Assembly: GCF_012972705.2 (NCBI RefSeq)
Contig: NZ_JABCSC020000003.1
Coordinates: forward strand, 744,001 to 808,000
From: Uliginosibacterium aquaticum
GTDB lineage: Bacteria; Pseudomonadota; Gammaproteobacteria; Burkholderiales; Rhodocyclaceae
DNA length: 64,000 nt
Direction: 5' to 3'
Each line of letters starts with the position of its first letter. Positions within the stretch are counted from its first letter, which is position 1. Below the pieces are notes generated by a model, which did no database searches, was not told where the DNA came from, and was given only the letters and a program-made list of their open reading frames with translations. Shown in pieces: positions 11,345 to 33,131 of this stretch. Made by a program: the position numbers and the translations under genes.

Positions 11345-12391
11345 TCAGGCGGTGGAGCGTACGAGCCATTGATCGAGTGCTTGCATGGCTTTCAGGCGCT
11401 GGGATTCGTCCAGGAACGAGGCCCTGATGGCGTGCCGGGTCAGGCGTACGGCTTCGGTGATGGAGAGCCCCAGGTGTTGCTCCAGGCTGGAAAACTCTTC
11501 ACTGAGCGTGACGCCTGACATCAGCCGGTTATCGGTGGAGCAGGATACCGACAAGCCTGCAGCCAGCATGCGGCGGATCGGGTGCTCGGAGAGCGATGCC
11601 ACCGTGCCGGTATGCACGTTGCTGCTGGGGCAGACTTCGAAGTGCAGGTTCAAGGCGCGTGCCTCGGCGAGCCAGGCCGCGCCGGTGGCGTCATCCGGGG
11701 GCGCCATGATGTTTACGCCATGGCCGATGCGGCGGGCACCGATCTGCGCGGCTTCCAGTACGCGGCTGCCAAGGTCCGCTTCGCCGGCGTGGCAGGTCAG
11801 GCCCAGCCCGGCTTCGCGGGCCACGCGGTAGGCCGCTTGGTGGCTGCCTGGCGGGTAATTGAGCTCGGCACCGGCCAGGTCAAAGCCGACGACGCCTTGA
11901 TCGCTGTAGCGCGCTGCCAGGCGGGCGGTGCGCAGCGAGGCTTCGGGCGTATCGGTGCGCATGGCACAGAGAATCAGGCCGCTGGCCAGGCGGCTCTCCT
12001 TCAGGCCGCTCAGCAAGGCTTCGACGACCGCTTCCGGTGCGATACCGAAAGGCTCCAGCAGCAAGGGTGCCATGCGGAACTCGGCCAGCACGCAGCCGTC
12101 GAGAAGCGCGTCCTCAGCCGCCTCGAAGGCAACGCGCTGGCATGCGGCTGCGCTGGCCATGGCTTCAACGGTGAGGGCAAAGCCTTGCAGATAGCGCACC
12201 AGGCTGCCCGAGTTGGCGTTGCTCTGCATCCATTGCGCCAGTTCTGCAGCGCTGCCGGCAGGCACGGCAATTCCGCGCTCAGCGCACAGGTCCAGCAGGG
12301 TCTGGGCCCGCAGGCCGCCGTCCAGATGTTCATGCAGCAAAGCCTTGGGCATGGACGGCCAATTCACGGTGCCGGGGGTGGGGTGAGTCAT
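11345..12391 (-). CDS. add: Adenosine deaminase
   Basis: A 348-residue cytoplasmic zinc amidohydrolase that converts adenosine and deoxyadenosine to inosine and deoxyinosine. Visible metal and catalytic motifs are HEHLDGGLR near residue 20, TCHAGEAD in the middle, and CPSSNVHTG followed by STDNRLMSG. The last of these places it with the shorter bacterial/actinobacterial-type enzymes rather than the E. coli type. The start is ATG 12391, with AAGGA eight bases before it. It is transcribed divergently from the nucleoside importer operon, with a PurR-type operator between them, and feeds inosine to the purine nucleoside phosphorylase of that operon. Confidence 0.92.
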   Translation of the reverse strand: MTHPTPGTVNWPSMPKALLHEHLDGGLRAQTLLDLCAERGIAVPAGSAAELAQWMQSNANSGSLVRYLQGFALTVEAMASAAACQRVAFEAAEDALLDGCVLAEFRMAPLLLEPFGIAPEAVVEALLSGLKESRLASGLILCAMRTDTPEASLRTARLAARYSDQGVVGFDLAGAELNYPPGSHQAAYRVAREAGLGLTCHAGEADLGSRVLEAAQIGARRIGHGVNIMAPPDDATGAAWLAEARALNLHFEVCPSSNVHTGTVASLSEHPIRRMLAAGLSVSCSTDNRLMSGVTLSEEFSSLEQHLGLSITEAVRLTRHAIRASFLDESQRLKAMQALDQWLVRSTA

Positions 12392-12525
12392 TGTTGTTGT
12401 CCTTCCTGGATTGATCTGATCTTGGAGCAAGAATTGCTCGTCCTGCAACAGCAGGTTTCAGGCCAGCACGAGCGTCACATTTCTATAACCAAAGTTGGCA
12501 TGGAGCCTGCTTATACTTTCTCAAT

Positions 12526-12539
12526 GCAAACGTTTGCAG
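12526..12539. promoter_or_regulatory. PurR-type operator between add and the nucleoside importer
   Basis: A perfect 14-bp palindrome, TGCAAACGTTTGCA, matches the E. coli PurR/LacI-family core. It sits 8 bp after a TATACT hexamer (12513-12518) that could be the -10 of the importer operon, so a bound repressor would block the start. The regulator is probably the LacI-family protein encoded second in that operon. Confidence 0.75.
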
Positions 12540-12578: not shown

Positions 12579-13556
12579 ATGAGTAACGCACTGAAATTTG
12601 TTCATCGCATCGGGCTGATGAGTTTAGTGCTGGGTTGTAGTGTCGCAGCGGCCGAGCCAGGCATCGTCTATGAACTGGGCGGCAAGTTCGACAAATCTTT
12701 CAACGAGGCGGCCTATCGCGGCGTCGAGCGTTGGAGCAAGGAGACCGGGCAGCGCGTGGCTGAATTCGAGGTCTTTGCCGAGACCCAGCGCGAGCAGGCA
12801 TTGCGCCGGATGGCTGAGCGCGGCACCAATCCGGTGATTGCGATCGGCTTTTCACAGCAGTCCGCCGTTGCCAAGGTTGCCAAGGATTTTCCCGGGAAGC
12901 GCTTCGTGATCATTGACGAAGTGGTGCCCTTGCCGAACGTCCAGTCGATCCTGTTCAAGGAGAACGAAGGCAGCTACCTCGTCGGCGCACTGGCGGCGCT
13001 CTCCAGCAAGAGCGGCAAGATCGGTTTCGTTGGCGGGATGGATGTGCCGCTGATCCGCAAGTTTCAGTGCGGTTACGAGCAGGGAGCGAAGTTCGTCAAT
13101 CCGGGGGTGGAGGTGATGGCCAGCATGACCGGCACCACTGGGGCGGCCTGGAACGATCCGGCACGAGGCGGTGAGCTGGCCCGGGCGCAGTTCGCGCGTG
13201 GTGTCGATGTTGTGTTTGCGGCGGCCGGCGGCACCGGGACCGGTGTTTATCAAGCGGCCAAGGATGCCCGCAAGCTGGCCATCGGCGTCGACAGCAATCA
13301 GAACTACATGCAGCCGGGCACCATGCTGACCTCGATGATCAAGCGGGTCGATGAAGCGGTGTATCAGGCGCTGGTGACTACACGCACGGGGCTCTCAGTG
13401 ATGGGCCTCAAGGAGGGCGGTGTGGATTACGCGCTCGACAAATACAACGCGGCACTGATCTCTTCAGAGATGACCAAGAAGGTCGAGACGATCAAGGCCG
13501 ACATCATCTCCGGTCGTGTGAAGGTTCCCGACTATGTCAATGGCGTTTGCAAGTAA
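12579..13556 (+). CDS. BMP-family nucleoside-binding protein (PnrA/NupN-like)
   Basis: A 325-residue periplasmic receptor of the basic membrane protein family. Characterised members such as PnrA bind purine nucleosides for ABC import. The N-terminus is a signal peptide; a Cys at residue 19 in LVLGCS could make it a lipoprotein, although the lipobox is imperfect. Family motifs visible are GGKFDKSFNEAAYRG near the mature N-terminus, GFVGGMDVPLIRKFQCGYEQG and FAAAGGTGTGVYQAAKD. The start is ATG 12579, with AGGAA upstream. It heads an operon running through the regulator, importer and salvage enzymes to 22835. Confidence 0.9.
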   Translation: MSNALKFVHRIGLMSLVLGCSVAAAEPGIVYELGGKFDKSFNEAAYRGVERWSKETGQRVAEFEVFAETQREQALRRMAERGTNPVIAIGFSQQSAVAKVAKDFPGKRFVIIDEVVPLPNVQSILFKENEGSYLVGALAALSSKSGKIGFVGGMDVPLIRKFQCGYEQGAKFVNPGVEVMASMTGTTGAAWNDPARGGELARAQFARGVDVVFAAAGGTGTGVYQAAKDARKLAIGVDSNQNYMQPGTMLTSMIKRVDEAVYQALVTTRTGLSVMGLKEGGVDYALDKYNAALISSEMTKKVETIKADIISGRVKVPDYVNGVCK

Positions 13557-13574: not shown

Positions 13575-14578
13575 ATGAGTACGATCAAGGATGTCGCCGC
13601 GCGGGCCGGCGTGTCGTTCACCACGGTTTCCCATGTGCTCAACGGCACGCGGCGGGTGAGCGATGCAGCACGTGCCAGGGTGGAACAGGCAGTGGCCGAA
13701 ATGGGCTATGCGCCCAGCGCCGTGGCGAGGGCACTGAAAACCAGTGAAACCTTCGTGTTCGGTGTGCTGGTGCCCAACATCACCAACCCCTTCTTTGCCG
13801 AGCTGACGCGCGGAATCGAAGAGCGCTGCCGGCAGACGGACTACTCGGTGTTCCTGTGCAATACGGACGATGAGTCCGAGCTGCAGACGCACTATCTGCA
13901 AACTCTGCTCGAGCGGCGCGTGGATGGGCTGCTGCTGGCGGCGGCGGCTGGTGAGCCGGAGCCGCTGGTCAGGCGTCTGGGTTTTGCGCGCGTGCCGACG
14001 GTGGTGGTGGAGCGGCGTATTCCGGGTCTGGAAGCGGATCTGGTGCGGGTTGATCATGACGCAGGGGCGCGCCTGGCCGCGTCCCACCTGGCGGCGCTCG
14101 GACACCGGCGGATTGCCTGCCTGTCCGGCCCGTCGCGTTTCCTGGTTAGTCGCGAGCGCACGGCAGGCTGGGTCGCCGGCTTGCAGGAGGCGGGTATCGA
14201 AATCCGTGCCGACTGGATGCTGGAAGGGGATTTTTCTGCGGCGGCTGGCCATGCGCTGGCGCATGAGTTGCTCCGCCAGCGCGAGGTGACGGCCATCCTG
14301 GCCGGTAACGACATGATGGCCATCGGGGTGCTGCGTGCCGCGGCCGAACTGGGCGTGTCCGTACCCGGCGAGCTGTCCGTGATCGGCTTCGATGGCATCG
14401 ATATGGGCAGCTATATGTTCCCGGCATTGACTTCGGTCGGCCATCCGATCCGTGAGCTTGGCGAGATGGCGGCATCGGTGCTGCTCGAGCGTCTGGGCAA
14501 GCGCGTGTTGCCGGTCCGTGAGGTAGTGATGGCGCCGCACCTGATCGAGCGCGCTTCCACCGGACCGGCGCCGAAAGG

Positions 14579-14582
<4 letters not shown>
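13575..14582 (+). CDS. LacI-family regulator with PurR-like DNA-binding head
   Basis: A 335-residue repressor. Residues 1-45 form the helix-turn-helix STIKDVAARAGVSF, then TTVSHVLNG. The hinge helix is SAVARALK, almost the same as SAVARSLK of E. coli PurR, with the Leu that intercalates into the central CG of the operator. Residues about 60-330 are the periplasmic-binding-protein-like effector domain. The head predicts the operator GCAAACGTTTGC, which occurs in front of its own operon and twice in front of the TonB/nuclease operon. The effector is probably a nucleoside or purine base, inferred from context. The gene overlaps the ATPase gene by 4 bp. Confidence 0.92.
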
Positions 14583-16158
<1,576 letters not shown>

Positions 16159-16162
<4 letters not shown>

Positions 16163-17313
16163 TCAGCTTCTTCAAATCGGGCGCGACCCCACCGATGCCT
16201 CGCTGGGCAGAGCTGGTGCTGATGCCGCTGGTCAATCTCGCCATCGCGTTTGCGCTGGCGGGGGGCGTCGTGGCGCTGGTCGGGCAGGCGCCGGGGCTGG
16301 TGCTGGAAACCTTGCTGCAGGGCGCTTTTGGCAGTCTGCGCGGAGTTTCCTACACGCTGTATTACACGACCAGCTTCATCTTCACCGGACTGGCCGTGGC
16401 ACTGGCTTCGCATGGCGGGCTATTCAATATCGGTGCGGAGGGGCAGGCGAGCATCGGCGGCCTGGGCATTGGCCTGCTGGCGCTATGGCTCTCGAACAGC
16501 CTGCCCTGGTATCTGATGTGGCCCCTGCTGCTGATTGCCGGCATGGGCTTTGGGGCCCTGTGGGCCGCCGTGCCGGGCTATCTGCAGGCCTGGCGGGGCA
16601 GCCATGTGGTGATCACCACCATCATGTTCAACTTCATGGCCAGCGCCTTGCTGAGCTATCTGCTGGTGCATCAGCTCAAGGTCAATGACGGCATGGCCGT
16701 AGAGAGCGCCCCCTTCGGTGCATCGGCCCACCTCTCCGGGATTCATCAGGTGCTGGCGAGCCTGGGAGTGGAATGGCCGTCTTCCCCGCTGAATCTCAGC
16801 TTCGTGCTGGCGCTGGGGGCCGCCGTGGCGGTGTATCTGCTCTTGTGGCGCAGCCGTGCGGGCTTTCGCCTGCGCGCGTTCGGATCCAGCGCCAGCGCTG
16901 CCGAATATGCCGGTATCAATCCGCGTCATCAGACCCTGTTGGCGATGGCCTGCTCGGGAGCGCTGGCGGGGATGGTCGGGATGAACGAGATCGCTGGCGT
17001 GAATGACAAGCTGTTGCTGGATTTCGTGGGTGGCGCAGGCTTCACCGGCATCGCGGTGGCGGTGATCGGGCGCAATCATCCGTTCGGGATCGTGATGGCC
17101 AGCCTGTTGTTTGGTGCGCTGTTTCAGGGAGGCGCGGAAGTGGCTTTCGAAGTCCAGGGCTTCACCCGTGACATGGTGGTGATGCTGCAGGGCCTGATCG
17201 TGCTGGTCTCCGGCGCAATGTCGCATGTGGTGGCCGGGCCGGTGGCGCGCCTTGTGCACGCGTGTTCCCGCCGTGAGGCATCTTTTACCGAAAAGGAGAC
17301 GCAGCATGGATGA
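16159..17313 (+). CDS. Nucleoside ABC importer permease 1 (NupP-like)
   Basis: A 384-residue inner-membrane permease of the BPD_transp_2 class. It shows about nine hydrophobic helices, an IGAEGQASIGG segment (near residue 95) conserved in BMP-type permeases, and the cytoplasmic coupling stretch LRAFGSSASAAEYAGIN (near residue 240). It forms half of the membrane channel for nucleosides. The ATG overlaps the ATPase stop, and the gene overlaps permease 2 by 8 bp. The order binding protein, regulator, ATPase, permease, permease resembles known nupNOPQ-type loci with a regulator inserted. Confidence 0.92.
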
Positions 17314-18256
17314 GCTCATGCTGGGCACCCTGCTGGCCTCAACCCTGAGGGTGGCGACCCCGCTGATCCTGTGCGCGCTGGCGGGCGTGCTGGCGGAGCG
17401 TTCCGGGGTGATCGACATCGGTCTGGAAGGCAAGATGCTGTGTGCGGCCTTTGCTGCCGGTGCCGCCGGTGCCGTCTGGGGGAGCAGTTTTGTGGCTCTG
17501 GCGGCCGCCATTGGCGTGGCGTTCGCCCTGTCCATGCTGCATGGCTATGCCTGCGTGATCCATCGCGGGGATCAGGTGGTGTCGGGGATGGCGATCAACA
17601 TCCTTGCGGCGGGGCTGACCGTGGTGCTGGGCATTGCGTGTTTTCATCAGGGCGGGCAGACCCCTGCGCTGCCCGATGAAGTGCGCCTGCGTGCCTTGTG
17701 GCCGGAAGCGCCGGAGGTGCTGGGGGATCTGATCGGCAATGGTCTGGCCGGCTACAACGTGCTGGTCTATCTGGCGCTGGCACTGGTGCCCGGGGTCTGG
17801 CTGCTGTTGCAGCAGACCCGCTTCGGGCTGCGCTTGCGTGCCGTTGGCGAGAACCCTCACATGGTGGATGCCGCCGGCGTATCGGTGCATGGCCTGCGCT
17901 TCTCAGCACTGGCGCTCAACGGGTTGTTGTGCGGGCTGGCAGGCAGCTATCTGGTGCTGGCCCAGAACGCCGCTTTCGCCCCGCATATGACCGCAGGGCG
18001 GGGCTACATGGCGCTGGCGGCGATGATCTTCGGCAAGTGGCGTCCCTTGCCTGCCCTCGCCGCCTGCCTGCTGTTCGGTTTTCTCGATGCACTGGCCATC
18101 CGCCTGCAGGGTGCGGTGCTGCCGGTCATCGGCGAGGTGCCGGTGCAGTTCATCCAGGCACTGCCTTATCTGATGACCGTGATCCTGCTCGCCGGGTTCA
18201 TGGGCAGTTCCCAGGCCCCGGGGGCTTTGGGTCGTCCCTATCTCAAGGAGCGCTGA
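17306..18256 (+). CDS. Nucleoside ABC importer permease 2 (NupQ-like)
   Basis: A 316-residue inner-membrane permease, partner of permease 1. It has the conserved RSGVIDIGLEGKMLCAA segment near residue 30 and the coupling stretch LRAVGENPHMVDAAGV near residue 190, both typical of BMP-type importers. The start is ATG 17306, with AAGGAG eight bases before it. The longer open frame begins inside permease 1 in another frame and is not used. It is followed after two bases by cytidine deaminase, so import and salvage are one transcription unit. Confidence 0.92.
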   Translation: MDELMLGTLLASTLRVATPLILCALAGVLAERSGVIDIGLEGKMLCAAFAAGAAGAVWGSSFVALAAAIGVAFALSMLHGYACVIHRGDQVVSGMAINILAAGLTVVLGIACFHQGGQTPALPDEVRLRALWPEAPEVLGDLIGNGLAGYNVLVYLALALVPGVWLLLQQTRFGLRLRAVGENPHMVDAAGVSVHGLRFSALALNGLLCGLAGSYLVLAQNAAFAPHMTAGRGYMALAAMIFGKWRPLPALAACLLFGFLDALAIRLQGAVLPVIGEVPVQFIQALPYLMTVILLAGFMGSSQAPGALGRPYLKER

Positions 18257-18258
18257 GC

Positions 18259-18687
18259 ATGTCAGCCATTGTTTTACCCGAATCGATTCGCACGGCCCTG
18301 TGGAAGACCGCGCTGGATGCACAGCTGCGGGCTTACGCGCCGTATTCGCACTTTCTCGTTGGCGCTGCGGTGCTGGATGAGCATGGCTGCATCCATGCCG
18401 GCTGCAATGTCGAGAACGCGGCTTACCCCGAGGGGCTGTGTGCCGAAGCCGGGGCGCTCAGCACGATGGTGCTCGCAGGTAGCCGGGCGGTGAAAGCCGT
18501 GCTCGTCGTGGGTGAAGGCCCGGGGCTGGTGACGCCCTGTGGCGGCTGCCGCCAGAAGCTGCGTGAATTTGCCTTGCCCAACACCCCCATTCTCATTGCA
18601 GACAGGCAGATGGTGCGCGCCAGCTTCACGCTCGCCCAGCTGCTCCCAGAGAGCTTTGGTCCGGAACATCTTAAAAATGACAAATGA
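18259..18687 (+). CDS. cdd: Cytidine deaminase
   Basis: A 142-residue zinc enzyme of the homotetrameric type that converts cytidine and deoxycytidine to uridine and deoxyuridine. Zinc and catalytic motifs are CNVENAAYPEGLCAE, with the catalytic Glu of the CAE motif, and PCGGCRQ with the two further Cys ligands. The residue after CAE is Ala where many homologues have Arg (CAER), a small departure near a zinc ligand. The start is ATG 18259, after CAAGGAG. It passes deoxyuridine to DeoA and overlaps the next gene by about 11 bp. Confidence 0.92.
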   Translation: MSAIVLPESIRTALWKTALDAQLRAYAPYSHFLVGAAVLDEHGCIHAGCNVENAAYPEGLCAEAGALSTMVLAGSRAVKAVLVVGEGPGLVTPCGGCRQKLREFALPNTPILIADRQMVRASFTLAQLLPESFGPEHLKNDK

Positions 18688-19480
18688 AATGAACGCAGCA
18701 CAGAAACTGAAAGCGCTTTACCCCCAGCACAAGCCCCGCATTGCGGTCGTGCTGGGATCGGGCTGGGGAGGGCTCACCGGACATGTCGTCGATCCGGTGC
18801 GGGTGCCTTACGCCGAGCTGCCCGGTTTTCCCGAGGCAACCGTGCAGGGCCATGGCGGCGAGCTGTGGCTGGGGCGGATCGGCCAGACCGAGGTGGCTGT
18901 CATGAGTGGGCGCAAACATGCCTACGAGGATGGCGTGGTCGACGGCATGCGCCTGCCGCTGGAAACGCTCAGGGACATCGGCTGCGAAGCGATCGTGCTG
19001 ACCAACGCGGCGGGCAGCCTGAGGCCGGCCATGGAGCCTTGCAGCCTGATGTTGATCAATGACTACATCAATGCCACCCAGCGCTCGCCGCTGGTGGGGG
19101 AGATGGGCAGCGAGCGTTTCGTGGACATGAAGGATGCCTACGATCCCGCGCTGCGCCGGGTGGCGCATGAGGTGGCACGCGAGAGCGGCACCCGTCTGCA
19201 CGAAGGCGTTTATCTGTGGAGCTTCGGCCCCCAGTTCGAAACGCCTGCGGAAATCCGCATGTTCGAGCGCATGGGCGCCGATGCCGTAGGCATGAGCACG
19301 GTGCCGGAAACCATCCTGGCGCGGCGCATGGGCTTGCCGGTGCTGGCTTTCTCGCTGATCACCAATATGGCGGCAGGGCTCTCTGGCGAGAGTCTCAGCC
19401 ACTCTCACACCCTGTCCCAGGCCCGAGCTGCCGGCGACACCGCCAGCGGCCTGCTGGCACGCATCATTGCCAATCTCTGA
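18677..19480 (+). CDS. punA: Purine nucleoside phosphorylase, trimeric class
   Basis: A 267-residue enzyme that splits inosine, guanosine and their deoxy forms with phosphate into base and (deoxy)ribose-1-phosphate. It belongs to the trimeric PunA/XapA class rather than hexameric DeoD. Motifs visible are VVLGSGWGGL (phosphate loop), GRKHAYEDG, TNAAGSL, then GPQFETPAEIR with the purine-binding Glu, and LITNMAAG with the Asn that selects 6-oxopurines. Adenosine would therefore need Add first. The start is ATG 18677, overlapping cdd; ATG 18689 is an alternative. Neither has a strong ribosome site, so translation is probably coupled to cdd. Confidence 0.93.
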   Translation: MTNEMNAAQKLKALYPQHKPRIAVVLGSGWGGLTGHVVDPVRVPYAELPGFPEATVQGHGGELWLGRIGQTEVAVMSGRKHAYEDGVVDGMRLPLETLRDIGCEAIVLTNAAGSLRPAMEPCSLMLINDYINATQRSPLVGEMGSERFVDMKDAYDPALRRVAHEVARESGTRLHEGVYLWSFGPQFETPAEIRMFERMGADAVGMSTVPETILARRMGLPVLAFSLITNMAAGLSGESLSHSHTLSQARAAGDTASGLLARIIANL

Positions 19481-23175: not shown

Positions 23176-23187
23176 GCAAACGTTTGC
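23176..23187. promoter_or_regulatory. PurR-type operator O2 (promoter-proximal)
   Basis: A perfect 12-bp palindrome, GCAAACGTTTGC, 27 bp before the exbD start codon. With the site at 22996 it forms an operator pair around the candidate promoter. It links this operon to the LacI-family regulator of the nucleoside import operon. Confidence 0.75.
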
Positions 23188-23214: not shown

Positions 23215-23628
23215 ATGTTGCATTTTGAAGAGCCGCCCCCCCGCAAAGCCCGCATCGAGATCATCCCGATGATCGACGTGATGATGTTTCTGTTGATCTT
23301 CTTCGTGTTGATCAGCCTGAACGTGATTCCTGCCTTCGGCCTCAAGACGACGCTGCCCGACAGCAAGACCGCCTCACGGGCGACGGTCGATGAGGCGCCG
23401 ATCGTGGTGTCCTTGCAGGCGGATGGCTCCGTGGCGCTGGACGGGCAGTTGCTGGCGTCCGAGCAGTTGGGCGGTGCGGCGAAGGCCGCGCATCAAAAGG
23501 ATCCAAAAAAGCGCTTCATCGTCAGTGCGGATCAGACCGTGCAGTGGAAAGGCGTGGTGGCCGCGATGGATGCCTTGCGCGAGCAGGGGATTGAGTCGAT
23601 CACCTTTGCGACCAAGCGGGTGCAGTGA
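23215..23628 (+). CDS. exbD: ExbD-like energy-coupling protein
   Basis: A 137-residue protein of the ExbD/TolR family. It has a short cytoplasmic N-terminus, one membrane helix (about residues 20-42) that starts PMIDVMMFLLIFF with the conserved proton-path Asp, and a periplasmic domain. With ExbB it uses the proton-motive force to energise TonB. The start is ATG 23215, with GAAGAG upstream. First gene of the operon; its stop overlaps the tonB start (TGATG). ExbB is encoded after the receptor, an unusual separation. Confidence 0.92.
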   Translation: MLHFEEPPPRKARIEIIPMIDVMMFLLIFFVLISLNVIPAFGLKTTLPDSKTASRATVDEAPIVVSLQADGSVALDGQLLASEQLGGAAKAAHQKDPKKRFIVSADQTVQWKGVVAAMDALREQGIESITFATKRVQ

Positions 23629-24412: not shown

Positions 24413-26776
24413 ATGCGTACATACACTTTGAAACCCCTCACGCTCGCAATCATTGCCATGCTGGCGTCCGGCCAGCTGCAGGCGCAGCAGACCTCTGAGC
24501 TCAGCAAGATCACCGTGACTGGCGAGGGCGACAAGCTCGGCACCGGCCTGCTGGTCGATGAAGACACCCCCAAGGCCAAGAGCACCGTGACCAAGGCACA
24601 GCTGGACAAGACCCGTTCCAGCTCCAATGCCTTCCAGGACCTGAATCTGCTGCCGGGTGTGAATGCTTCCAGCACGGATCCCACCGGCATGTCGGGCGGC
24701 AATCTCCGCGTGCGTGGTTTCAACAGTGACCAGATGGGCTTCACCGTTGATGGTGCTCCGGTGAATGACTCGGGCAACTTCGCGGTCTATCCGCAGGAGC
24801 TCACCGACAAGGAAAACATGTGTGACCTCTTCGTTACCCAGGGGGGCACCGATGCCGAAGCGCCGCACGTGGGCGCATCGGGCGGCAATATCGGCATGAA
24901 CAGCTGTGGGCCGACCAAAGAGATGCGTTTGCGTGTCGCGCAATCGTTTGGCCAGCTCGATTACCTGCGTAGCTATGTGCGCGTGGATACTGGTGAAATC
25001 GGCAAGTTCAAGGGCTATCTCTCCTACTCCAAGTCCAGCGTCGACAAGTGGAAAGGGGAGGGCGAGAACAACCGGCAGCACATCGACAGCAAGCTCGAGT
25101 ATGACCTTGGCAAAGGCTCGCGCCTGTCCATGGGCATGCTGGCCAACGAGCTGATGAACCACAACTATCGCAGCATGACGCTGGCCGAAATCCAAGCGGA
25201 AGGTTACAAGGCCGATTACAGCGGCGACATGCCCAAGCACGTGACGCCGGTGAATGGCACGGCGCAAACCGAGAGCGCAGGTACGGTCAACTACTACGAT
25301 TACGCCCGCAACCCCTTCAAGAACTACCTGCTCACGCCCAAAGCCAATCTGCAGGTGGGCGAGCGCACCCGTCTGGATATCGAGCCTTACTACTGGTACG
25401 GCTACGGCGGCTCTACCTACCCGACCACCATCACCGAATCGCGGAGCAGCAGCAATGTGCACGGTGGGGTGTCCGACATCAACGGCGATACCGATGTGCG
25501 CGACCGGGTGCTGGTGCTGACCGGCTCGATGACCGAAACCAACCGGCCCGGCATCAACGTCAAGGCCACCCACGATCTGGACAACCACAAGATCACCACC
25601 GGTCTCTGGTTTGAGCGCGCGCGTCACCGTCAGACCCGTCCCGCCACCTATGTGGACAACAGCGGCACGGTGCTGGACTGGTGGCTTGATGACAGCGACG
25701 CGCTGATCAAGTATCAGGATGGCAATCCGTATCAGGCGCGCGACTGGCTCACCATCTCGACGGGCAAGAGCGCCTTCCTGCAGGACACCATCGACCTGAT
25801 GGACAGCCGCCTGCAAATCACGCCTTCCGTGACCTACAAGGTGCTTCAGCGCGATTTCCGCAACTTCTCCAACAACGGCACCGCCTCCACCTCCGCGACC
25901 TCGGCTGCCGGTAATGGCTATCTGGATTACCGGGTGGTCGAAAAGTATCAGCAGGTGCAGCCGGGCCTGGGCACTTCGTTCAACATTACCGACAAGGTGC
26001 AGACCTTCTTCGGGGTGGCCAACAACTTCCGTGCGCCGAGCAACTCCGACTACGCCAACCTGATCAGGACTTACTCCGGCAACACCATCACCAGCATGTA
26101 TGACGTGCCGGTGAAGCAGGAAAAATCCACCAACTACGATCTCGGTACGCGCTTCAAGGGCGACTGGGGCAAGGCTTCCGTTACGGCCTTCTTTGTTGAT
26201 TTCCGTGACCGGATTGCCTCCAGCTACGACCCGACGCTGGGCTACAGCCACTCGTGGAACGTTGGGGATTCGACCACCCACGGCCTCGAACTGGAAGGTG
26301 GCTCCGCGCCCTATCATGGCTTCAGCATGTATGGCTCGTTCAGCTACACCCTCTCGAAGATGAAGGAGAACATGCCTTCCGGCAGCACGACTTACTACGC
26401 CACCGCCGGCAAGCAGTTTCCCGATACGCCGAAGTATCTGGCTTCGCTCTCCTTGCAATATGCCTACGGCCCGTACATGGCCAACCTGGCAGCCAAGTAC
26501 ACCGGTGAGCGTTACCTGACCCTTGTGAATGACGTGTCCATCCCGAGCTACACCCTGCTGGATCTGAACACGGCCTGGAGCATGCCCTTCAACGGCGTGT
26601 GGGGTTTCAAGAACCCGATCCTGCGTTTCAACATCAGCAACCTGACCAACAAGAAGTACTACGTTGCCAATGCCGGCAGCGGCTCCAACGTCACGATCTC
26701 CAACGACGTCGCCGCGCCGCGGGTCTATACCGGTGCCGGCCGCTTTGCCAGCATGACTTTCCAGGTCGATTACTGA
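24413..26776 (+). CDS. TonB-dependent receptor, proposed for nucleic-acid fragments
   Basis: A 787-residue outer-membrane receptor. The signal peptide is about 1-24 and the TonB box region is SKITVTGEG. The plug shows LLPGVNASS, LRVRGFNSDQ, VDGAPVNDSG and GASGGNIGMN. The barrel ends FQVDY, with Tyr in place of the common C-terminal Phe. Its specificity is not legible from sequence; nucleic-acid oligomers, nucleotides or nucleosides are inferred from its neighbours (dedicated TonB/ExbBD, two nucleases, shared operators with nucleoside import). It is preceded by an 80-bp gap with a purine-rich AAAGAAGG ribosome site. Confidence 0.9.
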   Translation: MRTYTLKPLTLAIIAMLASGQLQAQQTSELSKITVTGEGDKLGTGLLVDEDTPKAKSTVTKAQLDKTRSSSNAFQDLNLLPGVNASSTDPTGMSGGNLRVRGFNSDQMGFTVDGAPVNDSGNFAVYPQELTDKENMCDLFVTQGGTDAEAPHVGASGGNIGMNSCGPTKEMRLRVAQSFGQLDYLRSYVRVDTGEIGKFKGYLSYSKSSVDKWKGEGENNRQHIDSKLEYDLGKGSRLSMGMLANELMNHNYRSMTLAEIQAEGYKADYSGDMPKHVTPVNGTAQTESAGTVNYYDYARNPFKNYLLTPKANLQVGERTRLDIEPYYWYGYGGSTYPTTITESRSSSNVHGGVSDINGDTDVRDRVLVLTGSMTETNRPGINVKATHDLDNHKITTGLWFERARHRQTRPATYVDNSGTVLDWWLDDSDALIKYQDGNPYQARDWLTISTGKSAFLQDTIDLMDSRLQITPSVTYKVLQRDFRNFSNNGTASTSATSAAGNGYLDYRVVEKYQQVQPGLGTSFNITDKVQTFFGVANNFRAPSNSDYANLIRTYSGNTITSMYDVPVKQEKSTNYDLGTRFKGDWGKASVTAFFVDFRDRIASSYDPTLGYSHSWNVGDSTTHGLELEGGSAPYHGFSMYGSFSYTLSKMKENMPSGSTTYYATAGKQFPDTPKYLASLSLQYAYGPYMANLAAKYTGERYLTLVNDVSIPSYTLLDLNTAWSMPFNGVWGFKNPILRFNISNLTNKKYYVANAGSGSNVTISNDVAAPRVYTGAGRFASMTFQVDY

Positions 26777-26809: not shown

Positions 26810-27457
26810 ATGAACTTCAATCTTCTGCATGAAATAGTCCTCGCCGCGATGGTGGTCCTGCTGGCGCTTGCCGTGGCGGTGATCATCGAGCGTTTCATCT
26901 ACTACAGCTTCGTCGAGCGTACCCGCAAGCGTCTGGGCAAGGCGCTGGCCAGTGGCGACTCGTCCGCCATCGAAGCGGCGGTGGGCGTAGCGCGCACGCC
27001 CCATGGCCGCATCATGGCCGGGGTGTTGGCCTTTGCCGGCGCATCCAAGGATCAGTTCGAAAACAAGGTCCAGGCGCTCTACCTGCAGCAACAGAGCAGC
27101 GTGAAACGGCTGCTGTGGGTGATCGACACCACGATCACGCTGTCTCCGCTGCTGGGTTTGCTGGGCACCATCCTGGGCATCATCGACACCTTCAACGCAC
27201 TGGCCACGCAAGGGGTGTCCGATCCGCAGGCGGTCAGCCAGGGGATCGGCACCGCCCTGTTTGCCACCGCGGCGGGGATCGGCATTGCGGTGTTCTGTCT
27301 GGTGTTCCACAACTATTTCAACGAGCGTGTGGAGCGCATCAACGAGCAGCTCAAGGTGATGGCGCTGGAGCAGGCCGGAGCCATGGGTGGTGAAGAAATG
27401 GAAGTCCGTGGCGGTCGCGAGCCCGCCCGGATTCAACCCAAGGCCGTTGCTGCCTGA
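26810..27457 (+). CDS. exbB: ExbB-like proton-channel protein
   Basis: A 215-residue MotA/TolQ/ExbB family protein with three membrane helices (about 8-30, 105-130 and 150-172). The last two include TITLSPLLGLLGTILGIIDTF and AVSQGIGTALFATAAGIGIAVF, the conserved pore segments. It forms the pentameric channel that, with ExbD, energises TonB. A hydrophilic C-terminal tail of about 35 residues follows. It lies between the receptor gene and the nuclease fusion gene and is the only exbB in the window. Confidence 0.92.
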   Translation: MNFNLLHEIVLAAMVVLLALAVAVIIERFIYYSFVERTRKRLGKALASGDSSAIEAAVGVARTPHGRIMAGVLAFAGASKDQFENKVQALYLQQQSSVKRLLWVIDTTITLSPLLGLLGTILGIIDTFNALATQGVSDPQAVSQGIGTALFATAAGIGIAVFCLVFHNYFNERVERINEQLKVMALEQAGAMGGEEMEVRGGREPARIQPKAVAA

Positions 27458-27471: not shown

Positions 27472-30246
27472 ATGAATGCGAGACTGCTGCGTCCCCTGTG
27501 TCTGTTGATCGCCACCCTGGTCTCCAGTGCGGCGCTGGCCTGGAATTCCGCTGGCCATCAGGCCGTGGGCGCCATTGCCGACCGCCTGCTGGAAGGGAGT
27601 TATGCCGGCCAGATGGTCCGCCAGACTCTGGGGGGCATGAGCCTGGAAACCGCCGCGGTGTGGGCCGATTGTGTGAAGGGCACGTCCTCGAAGGATGGCG
27701 TGAATTTCACCTATACCGCCAACCCGCAGCGCTTCACGGAGTGCATCCCCTTCAATACGCCTGAGCAGCAGGCTCGCATCATTGCCTTCGTCAAGGCCAA
27801 CTGGACCCAGTGCGGTACGGCACAGGGCAACGAGTGGTGCCACAACCAGTATCACTACACGGATGTCGCGCCGCAACGCGAGCGTTACGACCGCAAGTTC
27901 GCCGGCACCAGCGATCACGATGTCGTACACGCCATTCCGGCCATGCTGGCGGTGCTCAAGGGCCAGACGCCACCGGCGCCGTTCCAGATCGCGGACGCCC
28001 GCGAGGCGCTGATGCTCTTGAGCCACTACGTGGGCGATCTGCACCAGCCTTTGCATGTTGAGTCGATCTATCTGGGCGCGGATGGCAAGCCGGTCGATCC
28101 GGACGAACATGGCCTGGATCACGCCAGCGAAACCGCCGGCGGCAATTTGATTTTTGATGGCAGCAAACGTTTTCACGCGTTCTGGGACGACATCCCCCTG
28201 AACCTGGCCGTGCAGGGCGAGGGCTTTGCCGGAATGCTGGCACGGGCGCGCCAGGTGACAACCCCTGGGGGAGACGCCAGTGGCTGGGCACAGGCCTGGG
28301 CGACTGAGCTGGTGCAGACCGGCAAGGCGGTGTACGCGCCGCTGAGCTACACGCCGCGTCCGGCGCAAGCCAATAGCTCTTCCGCCGCCGGCTGGTCGGC
28401 CAGTGGGATGACAGATGCGTATCGCAAGCAGGCTGACCAGCTCAAGCAGGCGCAGCTGGCTCTGGCCGGTGCCCGGCTGGCGAAAATGCTTCAGGCCGTG
28501 TGGCCCGAGCCCAGCAGCATGGGGCCGCACAAGGCCGGCGTGAGTGTGCGCCTGATTGCATTCAACGATTTTCACGGCAATCTGGAGCCGGGTAGTCTGA
28601 GCCTGGCCTGGACCGATCCGCTGCAGCCCGAGACGCGCGCGCGCATTCCGGTCGGTGGTGCTGCTGCGCTGGCTGGAATGATCAAGGCCCTGCGCAGTGA
28701 AGTGCCTGCCAGCCTGGTGCTCGAAACCGGTGATCTGGTGGGCGGCTCGCCGCTGGTGTCGACCCTGTTCCGGCATGAAAACACCATCGCCCTGATGAAT
28801 GACATGGGGGTGGATGTCGGGGTGCTCGGTAATCACGAGTTCGATGCCGGCATCAAGGAACTCAAGCGTCTGGAGAAGGGGGGGTGTGCTGCCAGTGCGC
28901 CGGATTCGATGACCAGTTCCTGCGCCGAGGGCGCGTATGCCGGCATGAAGTTCAGCCTGCTCGGCGCTAATGTGCGCGATGCCCGCACTGGCAAGGCGCT
29001 GTTCGCGCCTTATACGATTCGCAAGGTGAAGGGCATTCCGGTGGCCTTCATTGGTGCGGTGACGCGCGAAACCCCCAGCGTGGTGGTGCGCTCCTCGATT
29101 GCAGGCCTGCGTTTCGACGACGAAGCCAACACCCTTAACCGCACCGCACGGCTGCTGCGCAAGAACGGCATCAAGGCCATCGTGGCCATGGTGCATGAGG
29201 GGGGCGAAATTGGCAGTGAAGAAAAACCGGCGGACTGGAATGACGCGAGCTGCCCGCAGGCCAAGGGGGCGATCTTCGAGATCGCCAAGCGCACCACGCA
29301 GGATATCGATGTGATCTTCTCGGCGCATACCCACCAGGGCTACCGCTGCGTAATCGATGGGCGTCCGGTGATGCAGGCGGTCAATTACGGCCGTGGGGTG
29401 TCGGTGGTCGATCTGGTGCTGGATCCGAAAACCCATGATGTGGATCGCCAGCGCACCGTGAGTGCCAACCTGCCCGTGGTGGGAGAGCGCACGACCTTGC
29501 TGCAGCGCCTGCAACTGGCGCGGGTGACCGCCCCGGCCTTCAGCGGCGCACTGCTCAACGCCGAGCCGGACCCGGCTATCGCTGCCCGGGTGGAGGCCTT
29601 CGTGCAGCAGGCTGCGCCGAGGGCGCAGCGGCCGGTGGCACGGGTGACGGCTTCCTTTGTGCGGGGTGAAACCCGCAGCGACAGCACGGCGGGCCGGCTG
29701 ATAGCCGATGCGCAACTGGCTGCCGCCCGCCCGGAAGACAAGGGCGCCGCGCAGATCGCCTTCCTCAACGAAGGCGGCATTCGTGCCGATCTGCTGTGCA
29801 AGGAGGCCAATGGCTGCACCGTGGGCTTTGGGCAGATCTTCGCCATGCAGCCCTTTGGTAACAATCTGGTGGTGATGACGCTGACTGGCGCACAGATCAA
29901 GACGGCACTGGAAATGCAGTGGCCCGCCGGTGCAAGCAAGCCGCGCTTCCTGCAACCCTCGGCTGGCTTCAGCTATGTCTGGCACGACGATGCACCGCTG
30001 GGTAGCCGGGTGAGCGACATCGTGCTTGAGGGGCTGCCGCTAGAAATGACTAGGGAATATCGGGTGGTGGTGAACAACTTCCTCTCGGAAGGGGGCGATG
30101 GCTTCCTGGTGTTCCGCGATGGGCGCAATCGGCAGGCCGGTGGTCAGGATATCGACGCCTTGCTCGACTACATGAAGCCCAGTCTCGCGGCAGACGGTAA
30201 GGCTTTTGCGCCAGACGCCCAGGTGCGCGGCAAACGCATGCCTTGA
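27472..30246 (+). CDS. S1/P1 nuclease - 5'-nucleotidase fusion
   Basis: A 924-residue periplasmic or secreted enzyme. The signal peptide (1-23) would leave Trp24 as the mature N-terminus, which in S1/P1 nucleases is itself a zinc ligand. The nuclease domain (about 24-340) keeps the other ligands: AGH29, WAD66, HYTD, SHYVGDLHQPLH and FHAFWDD. The second half (about 360-924) is UshA-like: FNDFHGN, ETGDLVGG, LGNHEFD, SAHTHQGYRC, then the nucleotide-binding C-terminal domain with NEGGIRADL and LSEGGDGFLVF. Together they would turn single-stranded nucleic acid into 5'-nucleotides, then nucleosides plus phosphate. The start is ATG 27472, six bases after GGAG. Confidence 0.92.
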   Translation: MNARLLRPLCLLIATLVSSAALAWNSAGHQAVGAIADRLLEGSYAGQMVRQTLGGMSLETAAVWADCVKGTSSKDGVNFTYTANPQRFTECIPFNTPEQQARIIAFVKANWTQCGTAQGNEWCHNQYHYTDVAPQRERYDRKFAGTSDHDVVHAIPAMLAVLKGQTPPAPFQIADAREALMLLSHYVGDLHQPLHVESIYLGADGKPVDPDEHGLDHASETAGGNLIFDGSKRFHAFWDDIPLNLAVQGEGFAGMLARARQVTTPGGDASGWAQAWATELVQTGKAVYAPLSYTPRPAQANSSSAAGWSASGMTDAYRKQADQLKQAQLALAGARLAKMLQAVWPEPSSMGPHKAGVSVRLIAFNDFHGNLEPGSLSLAWTDPLQPETRARIPVGGAAALAGMIKALRSEVPASLVLETGDLVGGSPLVSTLFRHENTIALMNDMGVDVGVLGNHEFDAGIKELKRLEKGGCAASAPDSMTSSCAEGAYAGMKFSLLGANVRDARTGKALFAPYTIRKVKGIPVAFIGAVTRETPSVVVRSSIAGLRFDDEANTLNRTARLLRKNGIKAIVAMVHEGGEIGSEEKPADWNDASCPQAKGAIFEIAKRTTQDIDVIFSAHTHQGYRCVIDGRPVMQAVNYGRGVSVVDLVLDPKTHDVDRQRTVSANLPVVGERTTLLQRLQLARVTAPAFSGALLNAEPDPAIAARVEAFVQQAAPRAQRPVARVTASFVRGETRSDSTAGRLIADAQLAAARPEDKGAAQIAFLNEGGIRADLLCKEANGCTVGFGQIFAMQPFGNNLVVMTLTGAQIKTALEMQWPAGASKPRFLQPSAGFSYVWHDDAPLGSRVSDIVLEGLPLEMTREYRVVVNNFLSEGGDGFLVFRDGRNRQAGGQDIDALLDYMKPSLAADGKAFAPDAQVRGKRMP

Positions 30247-30446
30247 TTTGAAAAGGGCCGGGTTCTCCGGCTCGCCAGAATGACCAGGCCGGTTTGTGTT
30301 CCTGCCCTTGCCGGGCGGGAAGGGCTTTCTGCGCCTGAAAATCGGATCAAAGGGGCCACAGAGCCTCGAGAACATGCGTCGGTTGACGGTCCGCGTGGCG
30401 GGCCGGGCCGGCAAAGAGCATTCACTCTCAACCCCGGGGAAGTCAG
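30247..30446 (+). other. 200-bp gap between the two nuclease genes
   Basis: Contains several GC-rich inverted words (GCCGG-GTTCT-CCGGC near 30256 and a CCTGCCC/GGGCGGG pair near 30301) but no T-run, no PurR-type core and no clear promoter hexamers. A ribosome site (GGGGAAG) precedes the nuclease start. Transcription may continue from the exbD promoter. Confidence 0.4.
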
Positions 30447-33131
30447 ATGGTCAAGTTAAAACAGCAGTATCCCGCGCTATCGGCGATGGTTGCCGGCGCG
30501 TTCGCTCTGGGCCTTGCGGCTTGTGGTGGTGGTGGCGCCAGCAGTTCGGAGAGTGCCGTCGCCAGTGGCAGCAGCGCAGGCAGCTCCGGTGCGAGCAGCA
30601 GTGCCGCAGCCTCGTCGGCCAGCAGCACCAGCGCTTCGAGCGCGTCCAGCGTCGCCTTGCCGGCCTGTGCCACGCCCACTAATCCTCTTCAGGCCATCAC
30701 CGCTGTGCAGGGCAGCACCGACACCAGCCCGCTGGCCGGGCAAGCCGTGGCGGTGCGTGGGGTGGTCACCGCCATCTTCCAGGCCGACACGCAACTGAAG
30801 GGCTTCTTCATCCAGCAGCCGGTGGCCGATGCGGATCCCTTGACCTCCGAAGGGCTCTTTATTTACGCCCCCAGTGCGGCCGCCGTGGCCGTGGGCGATT
30901 ACGTGCAGGTTGAAGGCAGCGTTGTGGAGTACAAGGCCAGCAGCGATACGCGCGCACTGACCGAGATCAGCGCGCCGACTGCCATCAGCGTGTGTGGCAA
31001 TGGACTCTCCATCTCGCCTGTTGCCCTGAGCCTGCCGCTGACCAGCGCTGATGCAATGGAAGCCTATGAAGGCATGCTGGTGAAGTTCGAGCAGACCCTG
31101 ACCGTGACCGACGTATCCGACCTCGGCCATTACGGTTCGGTACAGCTCTCCAGCGGCCGCCTGTGGGAGCCCTACAACCATCCGAGCCTGAGTGCCAGCG
31201 CGGCCACCAGCGCCAACGTCCTGAATCGCATGATTCTCGACGATGGCAGTACCAAGGCCTATCCGAATCCAATCCCCTATCTCAGCGCGAGAGACACCAG
31301 CGGTACGCGCCGCGTGGGGGATACGGTGGCGGGCGTCGCCGGTGCGCTCACCTGGAGCTCCAACGCCTGGCGTGTGCATCCCTCGGCCGCTCCAGCATTT
31401 GTTGCCAGCAATCCGCGCAGCACCGCACCGGCGAGTGTGGGTGGCACGCTGAAAGCCGCGCATTACAACCTGGAGAATTTCTTCACCACCTTGGGCTCGC
31501 GCGGGGCCGCTTCGTCGGGCGACTTCACCCGCCAGCGCGCCAAGCTGGTGGAGGCCATCGCCGGGATTGATGCCGATGTCCTGGCCCTGATCGAAACGCA
31601 GAACGACGCGGGCTATTCGCTGGATAATCTGGTCACCGCCCTGAATGCCAAGATGGGCGCAGGCACCTACCGCTATATCGATGCCGGCATCGCCGGGGAC
31701 GATGAAATCACCTCGGCCATGATCTACAAACCCGCCAAGGTCAGCCCGGTAGGCAATGCGCAGATCATCACTGACACCAACTTCGCGGTCTCCGGGGGGA
31801 TTCGCCCATCGATCGCGCAGCGCTTCGCGGCGCTGAGCAATGGCGGCATGTTCTGGATGGTGGCCAACCACCTCAAGAGCAAGGGTTCCTGCCCGAGCAG
31901 CAGCTCCAGCGTTGAAGCAGATTACGGTCAGGGCTGCTGGAATGCTTCGCGGGTGACTCAGGCCAAGGCCTTGCGTGACTGGGTGGCTTCGCTGGTGAGC
32001 AGCTCCGGCGAGAGCGATGTGCTGATGATGGGCGACTTCAATGCCTATCTGAATGAAGATCCGCTGGCGGTGCTGGAAAGTGCCGGCTACGAGGCCGTGC
32101 TGCGTCGTTTGCCTGCCGAGCAGCGTTACAGCTACCAGTTCGACGGCACCACCGGCGCACTGGATCACGCCTTTGCCAGCAGCAGCCTGAAGGCGCAGCT
32201 CAGCGGTATCAGCGTCTGGCACATCAACTCAGAAGAGCCGGAGATCATCGACTACACCACCGCGAGCAAGACGGATGACCGCTATGCGGTGAGCCCGTAT
32301 CGCGGCTCGGATCATGATCCGGTGGTGGTGGGGCTGACTCTCGGTGCCGATGCGGCGGTGGCTGCGACCACGCTGAGCGCCAGCGTGCCGAGTACCGGCA
32401 CGGCGGGCACGGCGGTCAGCATCACGAATCTCTCTGCCAGCAATGGCAGCAGCCTGAGCGTGAGCTGGGGGGATGGCACGACGGAAAGCCTGGCCACCAC
32501 GGCGACGGGCGCAAGCCATACCTATGCCGCAGCGGGCAGCTACTCGATCACCCTGACGCTCACCGGCAGCGGCTTGCCGGCCAAGCGCATCAGCACGATC
32601 AAGATCAGCGCAGCCAGCACGGGCGGCACGACGAGCGGACCGGACCTGTTCTTCAGCGAGTACATCGAGGGCACCAGCAACAACAAGGCGCTCGAGATCT
32701 ACAACCCGCTCTCGAGCAGCGTCGATCTGTCTGCCTATACCGTTCGCATGTATGCCAACGGCGGTACGACCGCGACCAACTCGCTGACGCTCAGCGGTAG
32801 CCTCGCCGCAGGCGGGACGCTGATCATCCGCCACCCGAGCTTCACAAGCACCTACACCTTCCCCGCCAGCGCGATCAGCAGCAGCGTGACCAACTTCAAT
32901 GGTGATGATGCGGTGACCCTGGAGAAGAGCGGGGCGGTGATCGACGGTATCGGCGTCTTGGGCGTGGATCCTGGCGTGTCGTGGACCAGCGGTAGCGTCG
33001 CGACCCAGGACAAGACCCTGCGCCGCAAGGCCAGCGTCACGCAGGGCAGCATTCCTGGCACGAGCTGGGATGTGGCCGCCGAATGGGATGTGTATGACGT
33101 CGACAGCTTTGGCGGTCTGGGGGCGCGCTGA
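30447..33131 (+). CDS. ExeM-like extracellular nuclease, lipoprotein
   Basis: An 894-residue exported protein. The lipobox GLAAC places a lipidated Cys at 26, followed by a Gly/Ser/Ala linker to about 70. Then come an OB-fold domain like that of YhcR/ExeM nucleases (about 75-320), an endonuclease/exonuclease/phosphatase domain (about 335-630; AAHYNLENFF, ALIETQND, MMGDFNAYL, GSDHDPVVV), a PKD-like domain (about 650-715; SWGDGTTES) and a C-terminal lamin-tail domain (about 730-890; FFSEYIEGTSNNKALEIYNP). It should degrade extracellular DNA at the cell surface. It follows the nuclease fusion gene by 200 bp and is probably the last gene of the operon. Confidence 0.9.
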   Translation: MVKLKQQYPALSAMVAGAFALGLAACGGGGASSSESAVASGSSAGSSGASSSAAASSASSTSASSASSVALPACATPTNPLQAITAVQGSTDTSPLAGQAVAVRGVVTAIFQADTQLKGFFIQQPVADADPLTSEGLFIYAPSAAAVAVGDYVQVEGSVVEYKASSDTRALTEISAPTAISVCGNGLSISPVALSLPLTSADAMEAYEGMLVKFEQTLTVTDVSDLGHYGSVQLSSGRLWEPYNHPSLSASAATSANVLNRMILDDGSTKAYPNPIPYLSARDTSGTRRVGDTVAGVAGALTWSSNAWRVHPSAAPAFVASNPRSTAPASVGGTLKAAHYNLENFFTTLGSRGAASSGDFTRQRAKLVEAIAGIDADVLALIETQNDAGYSLDNLVTALNAKMGAGTYRYIDAGIAGDDEITSAMIYKPAKVSPVGNAQIITDTNFAVSGGIRPSIAQRFAALSNGGMFWMVANHLKSKGSCPSSSSSVEADYGQGCWNASRVTQAKALRDWVASLVSSSGESDVLMMGDFNAYLNEDPLAVLESAGYEAVLRRLPAEQRYSYQFDGTTGALDHAFASSSLKAQLSGISVWHINSEEPEIIDYTTASKTDDRYAVSPYRGSDHDPVVVGLTLGADAAVAATTLSASVPSTGTAGTAVSITNLSASNGSSLSVSWGDGTTESLATTATGASHTYAAAGSYSITLTLTGSGLPAKRISTIKISAASTGGTTSGPDLFFSEYIEGTSNNKALEIYNPLSSSVDLSAYTVRMYANGGTTATNSLTLSGSLAAGGTLIIRHPSFTSTYTFPASAISSSVTNFNGDDAVTLEKSGAVIDGIGVLGVDPGVSWTSGSVATQDKTLRRKASVTQGSIPGTSWDVAAEWDVYDVDSFGGLGAR

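Follow-up and report, generated by a model that had tools for sequence, protein, structure and literature searches.

Extracellular DNA supplies carbon, nitrogen and phosphorus in abundance; to our knowledge, it is not settled how charged DNA fragments cross the outer membrane in bacteria without a Tsx-like pore. Shewanella reportedly uses DNA as food through a pathway that includes the nuclease ExeM, and an ExeM-family nuclease also occurs in the locus analyzed here, a block of ~22 kb (positions 11345-33131) in a 64,000-nucleotide stretch of the Uliginosibacterium aquaticum genome (hereafter the window). Among comparable systems, the use of extracellular DNA by Vibrio cholerae involves Xds, Dns, OmpK, UshA/CpdB/PhoX and NupC (PMC4723616, in the portion of the paper drawn on here); lipid headgroups and nucleic acids are named as likely phosphodiester targets of the phosphate utilization systems (PusCD loci) of Flavobacterium (PMC8115612, in excerpt); and the vreAIR region of Pseudomonas aeruginosa, a cluster studied in phosphate starvation, includes an uncharacterized putative exbB2-exbD2-tonB4 motor (PMC7035377, in excerpt). 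DNA scavenging (in Vibrio) and receptor-phosphatase loci (in Flavobacterium) are already known.

The block in the window starts with add on the minus strand, continues with the gene run bmp-lacI-ABC ATPase-permease-permease-cdd-pnp-deoC-deoA-deoB and then with exbD-tonB-receptor-exbB and an S1/P1 nuclease fused to a 5'-nucleotidase, and ends with exeM; genes were assigned by Pfam or NCBIfam profile matches. An initial annotation of the sequence had listed the same parts, and with each of them recovered in its place by Pfam and NCBIfam this observation is confirmed; reading it as a route that leads from nucleic acid outside the cell to central metabolism is plausible and has partial support. 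The reading that we favor, with somewhat better than even confidence, is that of a nucleic-acid scavenging regulon. The ExeM-family nuclease would cut DNA or RNA outside the cell, and the TonB-dependent receptor, with its own TonB-ExbB-ExbD motor, would move nucleotides and short oligonucleotides through the outer membrane into the periplasm. There, oligonucleotides would be cut to 5'-mononucleotides by the S1/P1 domain, and the 5'-nucleotidase domain would free phosphate. The BMP-type ATP-binding cassette (ABC) importer would bring the nucleosides in, and Add, Cdd, PNP, DeoA, DeoB and DeoC would convert them to free bases and central metabolites. An RbsR/PurR-like regulator of the LacI family may repress both operons via the operator GCAAACGTTTGC until a nucleoside or a (deoxy)ribose-type breakdown product appears. 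Gene content, operator pattern and the recurrent link of the receptor to nucleotidases and nucleoside catabolism are carried by sequence and comparison; cargo, subcellular sites, effector and the participation of ExeM are what we propose from them. The wider proposition, that a proteobacterial family of TonB-dependent transporters, usually in its own exbD-tonB-receptor-exbB arrangement, imports nucleotides or oligonucleotides as food, and that the whole route is here one repressor-controlled regulon, seems to us evenly poised.

A shared operator and its predicted regulator

The operator sites within the block, none with an assigned strand, are:

12526-12537, operator 1, GCAAACGTTTGC, between add and the importer operon
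22998-23009, operator 2, GCAAACGTTTGC, in the long gap before exbD
23176-23187, operator 3, GCAAACGTTTGC, before exbD, 178 bp (~17 helical turns) from operator 2

This 12-bp palindrome has exact matches at 12526, 22998 and 23176 only in the whole genome (4,090,459 bases, or 4.09 Mb; 99.8% complete), where base composition predicts ~0.15 exact sites; its reversed control has none. In Rhizobacter sp. Root404 it occurs exactly twice in 5.3 Mb (reversed control, one match): one site (L116:5455) starts 79 bp ahead of the called bmp start, beside a divergent add, and the other (L024:9940) lies directly before the orthologous receptor, behind deoB. The receptors of the two genomes are 56% identical, and on this sequence pattern a common operator links the receptor with the nucleoside operon in two genera. 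The gap between add and the importer genes holds an exact match at the place of operator 1 in two further loci (L149 and L150). Operator sites exclusive to these positions in two genomes bear out the proposal of one LacI-family regulon over both operons. The initial annotation had placed identical PurR-type operators in front of the two operons; the type agrees with the operator sequence and is the same before both, whereas the regulator protein is slightly closer to RbsR, and the actual layout is one site before the importer operon and two before exbD.

The regulator stays under all relevant NCBIfam cut-offs (RbsR, 288 vs. 382 and 281 vs. 531; PurR, 270 vs. 501), and its Protein Data Bank (PDB) matches score 244 bits for RbsR and ~220 bits for PurR; we describe it as probably RbsR/PurR-like and slightly nearer to RbsR, without equivalogue assignment. 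Relatives were found in 20 of 399 genomes of the order at E 1e-85, its own included, and the regions of 15 of the 19 others were read. Exact copies of GCAAACGTTTGC occur in 12 of these 15 regions, and the RbsR/PurR-like regulator is predicted to act at this sequence near its target genes. The nucleoside operon accompanies the regulator in two regions (L149 and L150); 11 of the other 13 have near it an ABC ATPase 34-37% identical to that of the window, and these probably represent ribose operons. One region with an exact operator also holds, ~3 kb from its ribose-type regulator, an ExeM-type nuclease (L158:9399-11888; 56% identical by tblastn).

One-mismatch operator matches at 15562, 19673 and 28163 lie inside genes and were left uncounted; further ones at 6939 and 33415 fall outside the block. 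At the far end of add, two one-mismatch operator halves form a perfect 24-bp palindrome (11304-11327), and adjacent 12-mers like these recur in two ribose-type loci (L153 and L154). This palindrome was considered as a fourth operator; a gene starting there is not discernible, and it is recorded as an observation only.

The receptor, its motor and their neighborhoods

The receptor cassette comprises:

23215-23628, plus strand, exbD (PF02472, 99.5 bits on a longer open reading frame from 23158)
23628-24332, plus strand, tonB (PF03544; TIGR01352 over cut-off)
24413-26776, plus strand, TonB-dependent receptor of 787 amino acids, from a phosphoesterase-linked family (PF00593 and PF07715)
26810-27457, plus strand, exbB (PF01618, 97 bits)

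With a plug (PF07715) and a TonB-dependent barrel (PF00593) over cut-off, the receptor is a TonB-dependent transporter; it falls under the cut-offs of the siderophore and heme subfamilies of NCBIfam (TIGR01783, 94 vs. 223.5; TIGR01786, 79 vs. 324; TIGR01785, 55 vs. 317). Its relatives are sparse. Counting its own genome, they occur in 7 of 150 genomes of the order at E 1e-40 and in 8 of 199 genomes of the family at E 1e-60 (three at 30-31% identity); at class level, only its own genome among 369 has a match at E 1e-60. Outside the window, 90 loci were mapped, namely the best 80 of 328 receptor relatives from a scan of a genome collection, seven further loci and three plasmid loci. The comparison is based on the 49 loci flanked by 4 kb or more on each side, leaving out 41 with short flanks. 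Within these 49 loci, exbD is present in 39, tonB in 44, exbB in 38, and all three in 37; exbD-tonB-receptor-exbB is the usual arrangement in the receptor family. At least one of six phosphoesterase families lies within 5 kb of the receptor in 39 of the 49 loci: 5'-nucleotidase in 17, PLD in 16, PhoD in 7, NPP in 5, alkaline phosphatase in 4 and metallophosphatase in 4. None of the six was found past 5 kb in the ~7 kb examined. The family occurs with motor and phosphoesterase in Collimonas and Herbaspirillum, with the motor in Derxia, and with a nucleotidase and the nucleoside operon in Rhizobacter. A receptor almost identical to that of Collimonas sp. OK412 is encoded in another genome of the order (G375), which points to a betaproteobacterial placement of the window's genome.

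A census of the 5'-nucleotidase domain PF02872, based on 22 genomes hand-picked as receptor carriers and on contigs matched to receptor positions by coordinates, gave 23 matches in 16 genomes; nine exceed 100 bits and all nine lie within ~4 kb of the receptor, and the remaining 14 all score below 65 bits. At ~1 match per 4.9 Mb, a 12-kb neighborhood would contain one in ~0.3% of genomes. On a quick tree of 95 receptors, built without bootstrap and with long-branch warnings, presence of the 5'-nucleotidase changes 15 times and that of PLD four times, which suggests that partners were swapped and the theme kept; the window receptor is sister to that of Rhizobacter (Shimodaira-Hasegawa-like approximate likelihood ratio test, 90).

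Three lineages join the receptor family to nucleoside catabolism, in differing gene orders. Besides the window, the first includes Rhizobacter, with the order bmp-lacI-ABC-permeases-cdd-pnp-deoC-deoA-deoB-receptor-5'-nucleotidase; the second (L115) has receptor-add-pnp-deoB-deoC-...-deoA with a divergent 5'-nucleotidase and an add only 25% identical; and the third (L020) combines the receptor with a permease of the xanthine/uracil family, a PfkB kinase and an inosine-uridine-type nucleoside hydrolase. Together with the 49-locus comparison and the PF02872 census, these lineages link the receptor family to nucleotide-cutting enzymes or nucleoside catabolism, as the initial annotation had implied. 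Its expectation that the blocks would recur across genomes held for receptor and nucleoside genes, which co-occur in three lineages, but not for ExeM and S1/P1, which had no match in the 90 other receptor loci, many of them short. Distant relatives on plasmids fit the nucleotide theme: the receptor lies near an annotated 2',3'-cyclic-nucleotide phosphodiesterase/3'-nucleotidase in Methylosinus, near PnuC and a nicotinamidase in Sphingomonas, and near a PLD-like protein in Chimaeribacter.

The nucleoside operons of L149 (continued by L176) and L150 (continued by L175) have no receptor of the window's family in the stretches read. In L176, the orthologous operon continues to PhoD, a 5'-nucleotidase, a GTP-cyclohydrolase-like protein, DUF1688 and uracil phosphoribosyltransferase, an apparent nucleotide-to-uracil catabolic island; the gene run ends with an outer-membrane protein of 1146 amino acids that has a PF25183 barrel and a CarboxypepD_reg domain. 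Outer-membrane proteins with this carboxypeptidase-regulatory domain are encoded at L175:12365-15841 and L176:5576-9016 (in L175, gene content is taken from gene calls and only this protein was Pfam-scanned). A match to the plug stays sub-threshold in the L176 protein and is lacking in that of L175, and NCBIfam names neither; we read them as putative TonB receptors of another class, which would represent a second, independent recruitment.

In a receptor branch at 30% identity (L117 and L118), the order is receptor-exbB-exbD-tonB; L117 has two amidohydrolases nearby, possibly indicating a different, nitrogen-compound cargo. In L016 (12839-18199), a hybrid sensor kinase of 1786 amino acids with a C-terminal GGDEF domain replaces the phosphoesterase directly behind exbD-tonB-receptor-exbB.

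Four genes of the ExbD/TolR family were placed in the window's genome, the window's own included; the others lie beside TolQ and TolA (L126), beside an ExbB/TolQ-type gene and LpxK (L125), and beside ExbB- and TonB-type genes (L124). Since only the L124 set also has ExbB and TonB types, the window motor is a second TonB-ExbB-ExbD set, and the dedicated TonB system of the initial annotation is borne out, with the correction that exbB is located downstream of the receptor, separated from exbD-tonB. Window ExbD (62 vs. cut-off 153 for ExbD; 74 vs. 127 for TolR) and ExbB (53 vs. 135 for ExbB2; 63 vs. 221 for TolQ) fall below the NCBIfam equivalogue cut-offs and score slightly nearer to TolR and TolQ; they belong to the Pfam families, and these and the gene context suggest their motor role.

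Nucleases at the end of the block

Two large genes follow the cassette:

27472-30246, plus strand, secreted S1/P1 nuclease fused to a 5'-nucleotidase (PF02265, PF00149, PF02872)
30447-33131, plus strand, ExeM/NucH-family extracellular nuclease (NF033681, 560 bits, cut-off 300)

The fusion protein is the sole PF02872 match in its genome. Within the order, 59 of 399 genomes (its own included) match it at E 1e-60, and only that of the window covers both halves, with two candidates scored per genome. A presumed second fusion (G462), whose match extended beyond the S1/P1 half, was dismissed, having S1/P1 and a sub-threshold PAP2 match and no 5'-nucleotidase; at L180:1316-3163, an S1/P1 nuclease is joined to a different domain with a sub-threshold match to PAP2 phosphatase. 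S1/P1 enzymes need a tryptophan at the N-terminus, and cleavage of the ordinary signal peptide of the fusion protein is expected right before such a residue; this signal peptide has no lipobox, and these features fit the periplasm. At 30223, where the gene ends, there is a terminator-like site that does not outperform shuffled sequences.

The ExeM-family protein carries PKD and LTD domains and a lipobox-like LAAC. Since its gene has no exact operator and follows a 200-bp gap, its place in the regulon is unproven; as it was also not seen beside the receptor in relatives, its inclusion in the regulon by the initial annotation is not upheld. Of the genomes of 13 relatives, four contain an ExeM (one match weak), while the 90 receptor loci, many of them short, gave no match; ExeM was rejected as a defining part. 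Nor does the complete chain appear as a conserved system, as had been suggested: Rhizobacter, the nearest genome with the same operon, has neither an S1/P1 domain nor ExeM in the stretch read around its receptor, and no TonB/ExbBD match there. Because the S1/P1 fusion and ExeM are found at the locus only here, the complete chain is probably this genome's own assembly, built over a recurrent core of receptor, motor and phosphoesterase joined to the nucleoside operon.

The nucleoside operon and its surroundings

The genes for nucleoside import and catabolism are:

11345-12391, minus strand, add, adenosine deaminase (PF00962, 272 bits; TIGR01430, 256 bits, cut-off 217)
12579-13556, plus strand, bmp, periplasmic binding protein of a BMP/PnrA-type ABC importer (PF02608, 203 bits)
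13575-14582, plus strand, LacI-family regulator, RbsR/PurR-like (PF00356 and Peripla_BP)
14579-16162, plus strand, ABC importer ATPase with two ABC domains (PF00005, two stretches)
16159-17313, plus strand, ABC importer permease 1 (PF02653)
17306-18256, plus strand, ABC importer permease 2 (PF02653, match on a longer open reading frame from 17225)
18259-18687, plus strand, cdd, cytidine deaminase (TIGR01354, 133 bits, cut-off 114; PF00383)
18689-19480, plus strand, pnp, purine-nucleoside phosphorylase (TIGR01698, 311 bits, cut-off 302.6)
19498-20277, plus strand, deoC, deoxyribose-phosphate aldolase (TIGR00126, 183 bits, cut-off 117)
20288-21613, plus strand, deoA, thymidine phosphorylase (TIGR02643, 606 bits, cut-off 570.7)
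21615-22835, plus strand, deoB, phosphopentomutase (TIGR01696, 421 bits, cut-off 341)

With deoC, deoA, deoB and a nucleoside phosphorylase together, this is a Deo-type nucleoside catabolic operon. The add gene, divergent from the importer operon, is given here from its ATG start; a longer TTG open reading frame extends to 12448. The best PDB relative of the BMP protein is Lbp (7x0r, 165 bits); TmpC (2fqw, 127 bits), which we take to be the purine-nucleoside receptor PnrA of T. pallidum, is among the others. The nearest NCBIfam model of the BMP protein, a 'B6' transporter, lies so far under its cut-off (77 bits vs. 400) that the ligand has to be assigned from operon context; the protein belongs to the BMP family, and the importer probably carries nucleosides.

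Horizontal acquisition of the cassette was considered and set aside: regional G+C is lower, yet the G+C content at third codon positions of the receptor (0.81) lies inside the range of the other genes (0.70-0.83, deoB left out), and the dip therefore reflects amino-acid composition. Just upstream of the block, a different, second TonB-dependent receptor and a family-5 solute-binding protein are encoded at 8364-10505 and 6796-8949 (both minus strand). Farther downstream, an AIPR-family protein (40985-42787, minus strand) in a stretch of low G+C (0.51-0.58) is possibly defense-related or part of a mobile insert.

Alternative explanations

Nucleotides or short nucleic acids are the cargo that we favor, because they explain phosphoesterases and nucleoside catabolism together; passage of DNA itself through the receptor, which the initial annotation had entertained, is not supported. 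Among the invariant columns past residue 170 of a 45-row alignment, 11 are basic and six acidic, which is faintly suggestive of an anionic cargo. Another explanation, which we consider unlikely and still the most serious, is that the receptor family serves organic phosphorus generally by importing phosphoesters (lipid headgroups, sugar phosphates and nucleotides) from which the phosphoesterases free phosphate, so that the nucleoside wiring is incidental to this locus. Its partners do include PhoD, PLD, an NPP-type phosphodiesterase, alkaline phosphatase and a PF04185 phosphoesterase, and phosphate starvation induces SusCD-like loci with phosphoesterases in Flavobacterium (PMC8115612, in the part consulted). 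Of 75 cassettes, nine have Pho-box-like sites (at most three mismatches) upstream; the expectation is 1.8, and a coding control gave 1 of 75. This signal is small, several of the nine are closely related by the receptor tree, and Pho regulation of the cassettes was not adopted on so weak an excess. General phosphorus acquisition also sits poorly with the three lineages that place the receptor with nucleoside catabolism, with 5'-nucleotidase as the commonest partner (17 of 49, PLD 16), and with the nucleoside-operon operator borne by the window and Rhizobacter cassettes.

It is less probable still that the receptor imports only nucleosides or bases, as a powered substitute for Tsx, with cutting and dephosphorylation taking place outside or at the surface. 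A search for the Tsx channel (PF03502, with E. coli as positive control) gave no match in the window's genome; some partner 5'-nucleotidases look like lipoproteins by their N-termini; and L020 combines nucleoside hydrolase and base-type permease with none of the six phosphoesterases. The signal peptide of the window fusion points, on the other hand, to the periplasm, and nucleosides are porin-sized, so that a TonB motor would presumably gain little. An unrelated cargo, such as a metal chelate or cofactor for metallophosphatases, with the linkage reflecting enzyme maturation, appears very improbable. The fold is that of siderophore, pyrroloquinoline quinone and metal receptors, and the enzymes neighboring the receptor are largely metal-dependent; yet PLD-type enzymes, the partners in 16 of 49 loci, work without metal, and the nucleoside genes in three lineages would be left unexplained.

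Several observations weigh against the scavenging regulon itself, which is argued from sequence and comparison. An AlphaFold model of the receptor (45 sequences; predicted local distance difference test score 84.3) has an ordinary TonB-dependent transporter fold whose PDB matches include, among those listed, FecA, FhuA, FoxA, PqqU and YncD at 14-17% identity; the modeled fold resembles siderophore receptors as well as PqqU/YncD and is no guide to the cargo. The six phosphoesterase families were picked after the neighbors had been seen, 10 of the 49 loci have none of them, and many relatives pair the receptor with PhoD, PLD or alkaline phosphatase, which do not necessarily act on nucleotides. 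Exact copies of GCAAACGTTTGC are absent from 9 of the 10 other genomes searched, Rhizobacter being the exception, and scans for consensus sigma-70 promoters and terminators at the operators found nothing. In Rhizobacter, the stretch read around the receptor gave no motor match, as described above, and S1/P1 and ExeM have no match in the other 90 receptor loci, many of which are short.

Comparison with known systems

In the open-access literature (titles and abstract openings, among the matches listed), no TonB-dependent receptor for nucleotides or DNA as food was found, and descriptions of this gene combination, of the cassette or of a proteobacterial nucleotide receptor equipped with a TonB motor of its own did not come up either. 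If the favored reading is correct, the receptor family answers the question of outer-membrane crossing and adds nucleotides or oligonucleotides to the substrates of TonB-dependent transport; its presence in culturable genera (Collimonas, Herbaspirillum, Rhizobacter and Derxia) makes this answer testable.

The window nuclease differs from Shewanella ExeM in its score against the ExeM exonuclease model NF033680 (309 bits vs. cut-off 1300), its lipobox-like start and its LTD domain near the C-terminus. In P. aeruginosa, VreA has no barrel according to the excerpted source (PMC7035377). The Flavobacterium loci resemble the window in that secreted phosphomonoesterases and phosphodiesterases accompany a TonB-linked outer-membrane transporter; they differ in being SusCD pairs of Bacteroidetes that respond to phosphate depletion by induction, and the part of the paper used here mentions no nucleoside operon (PMC8115612). 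The window has instead a receptor with exbD-tonB-exbB and an operator of an RbsR/PurR-like repressor; general scans of the locus genes met no SusD-like protein, no search aimed at SusD having been made. The likeness to V. cholerae extends to the sequence of steps, with nucleases outside, passage of nucleotides through the outer membrane, periplasmic nucleotidases and nucleoside importers; there, nucleotides enter via the Tsx-like pore OmpK and nucleosides via NupC (PMC4723616, as far as excerpted), whereas the window, in whose genome no Tsx was found, has a TonB-dependent receptor with its own motor and a BMP-type ABC importer in one LacI-family regulon. If this reading holds, the regulon is the nucleic-acid counterpart of a polysaccharide utilization locus.

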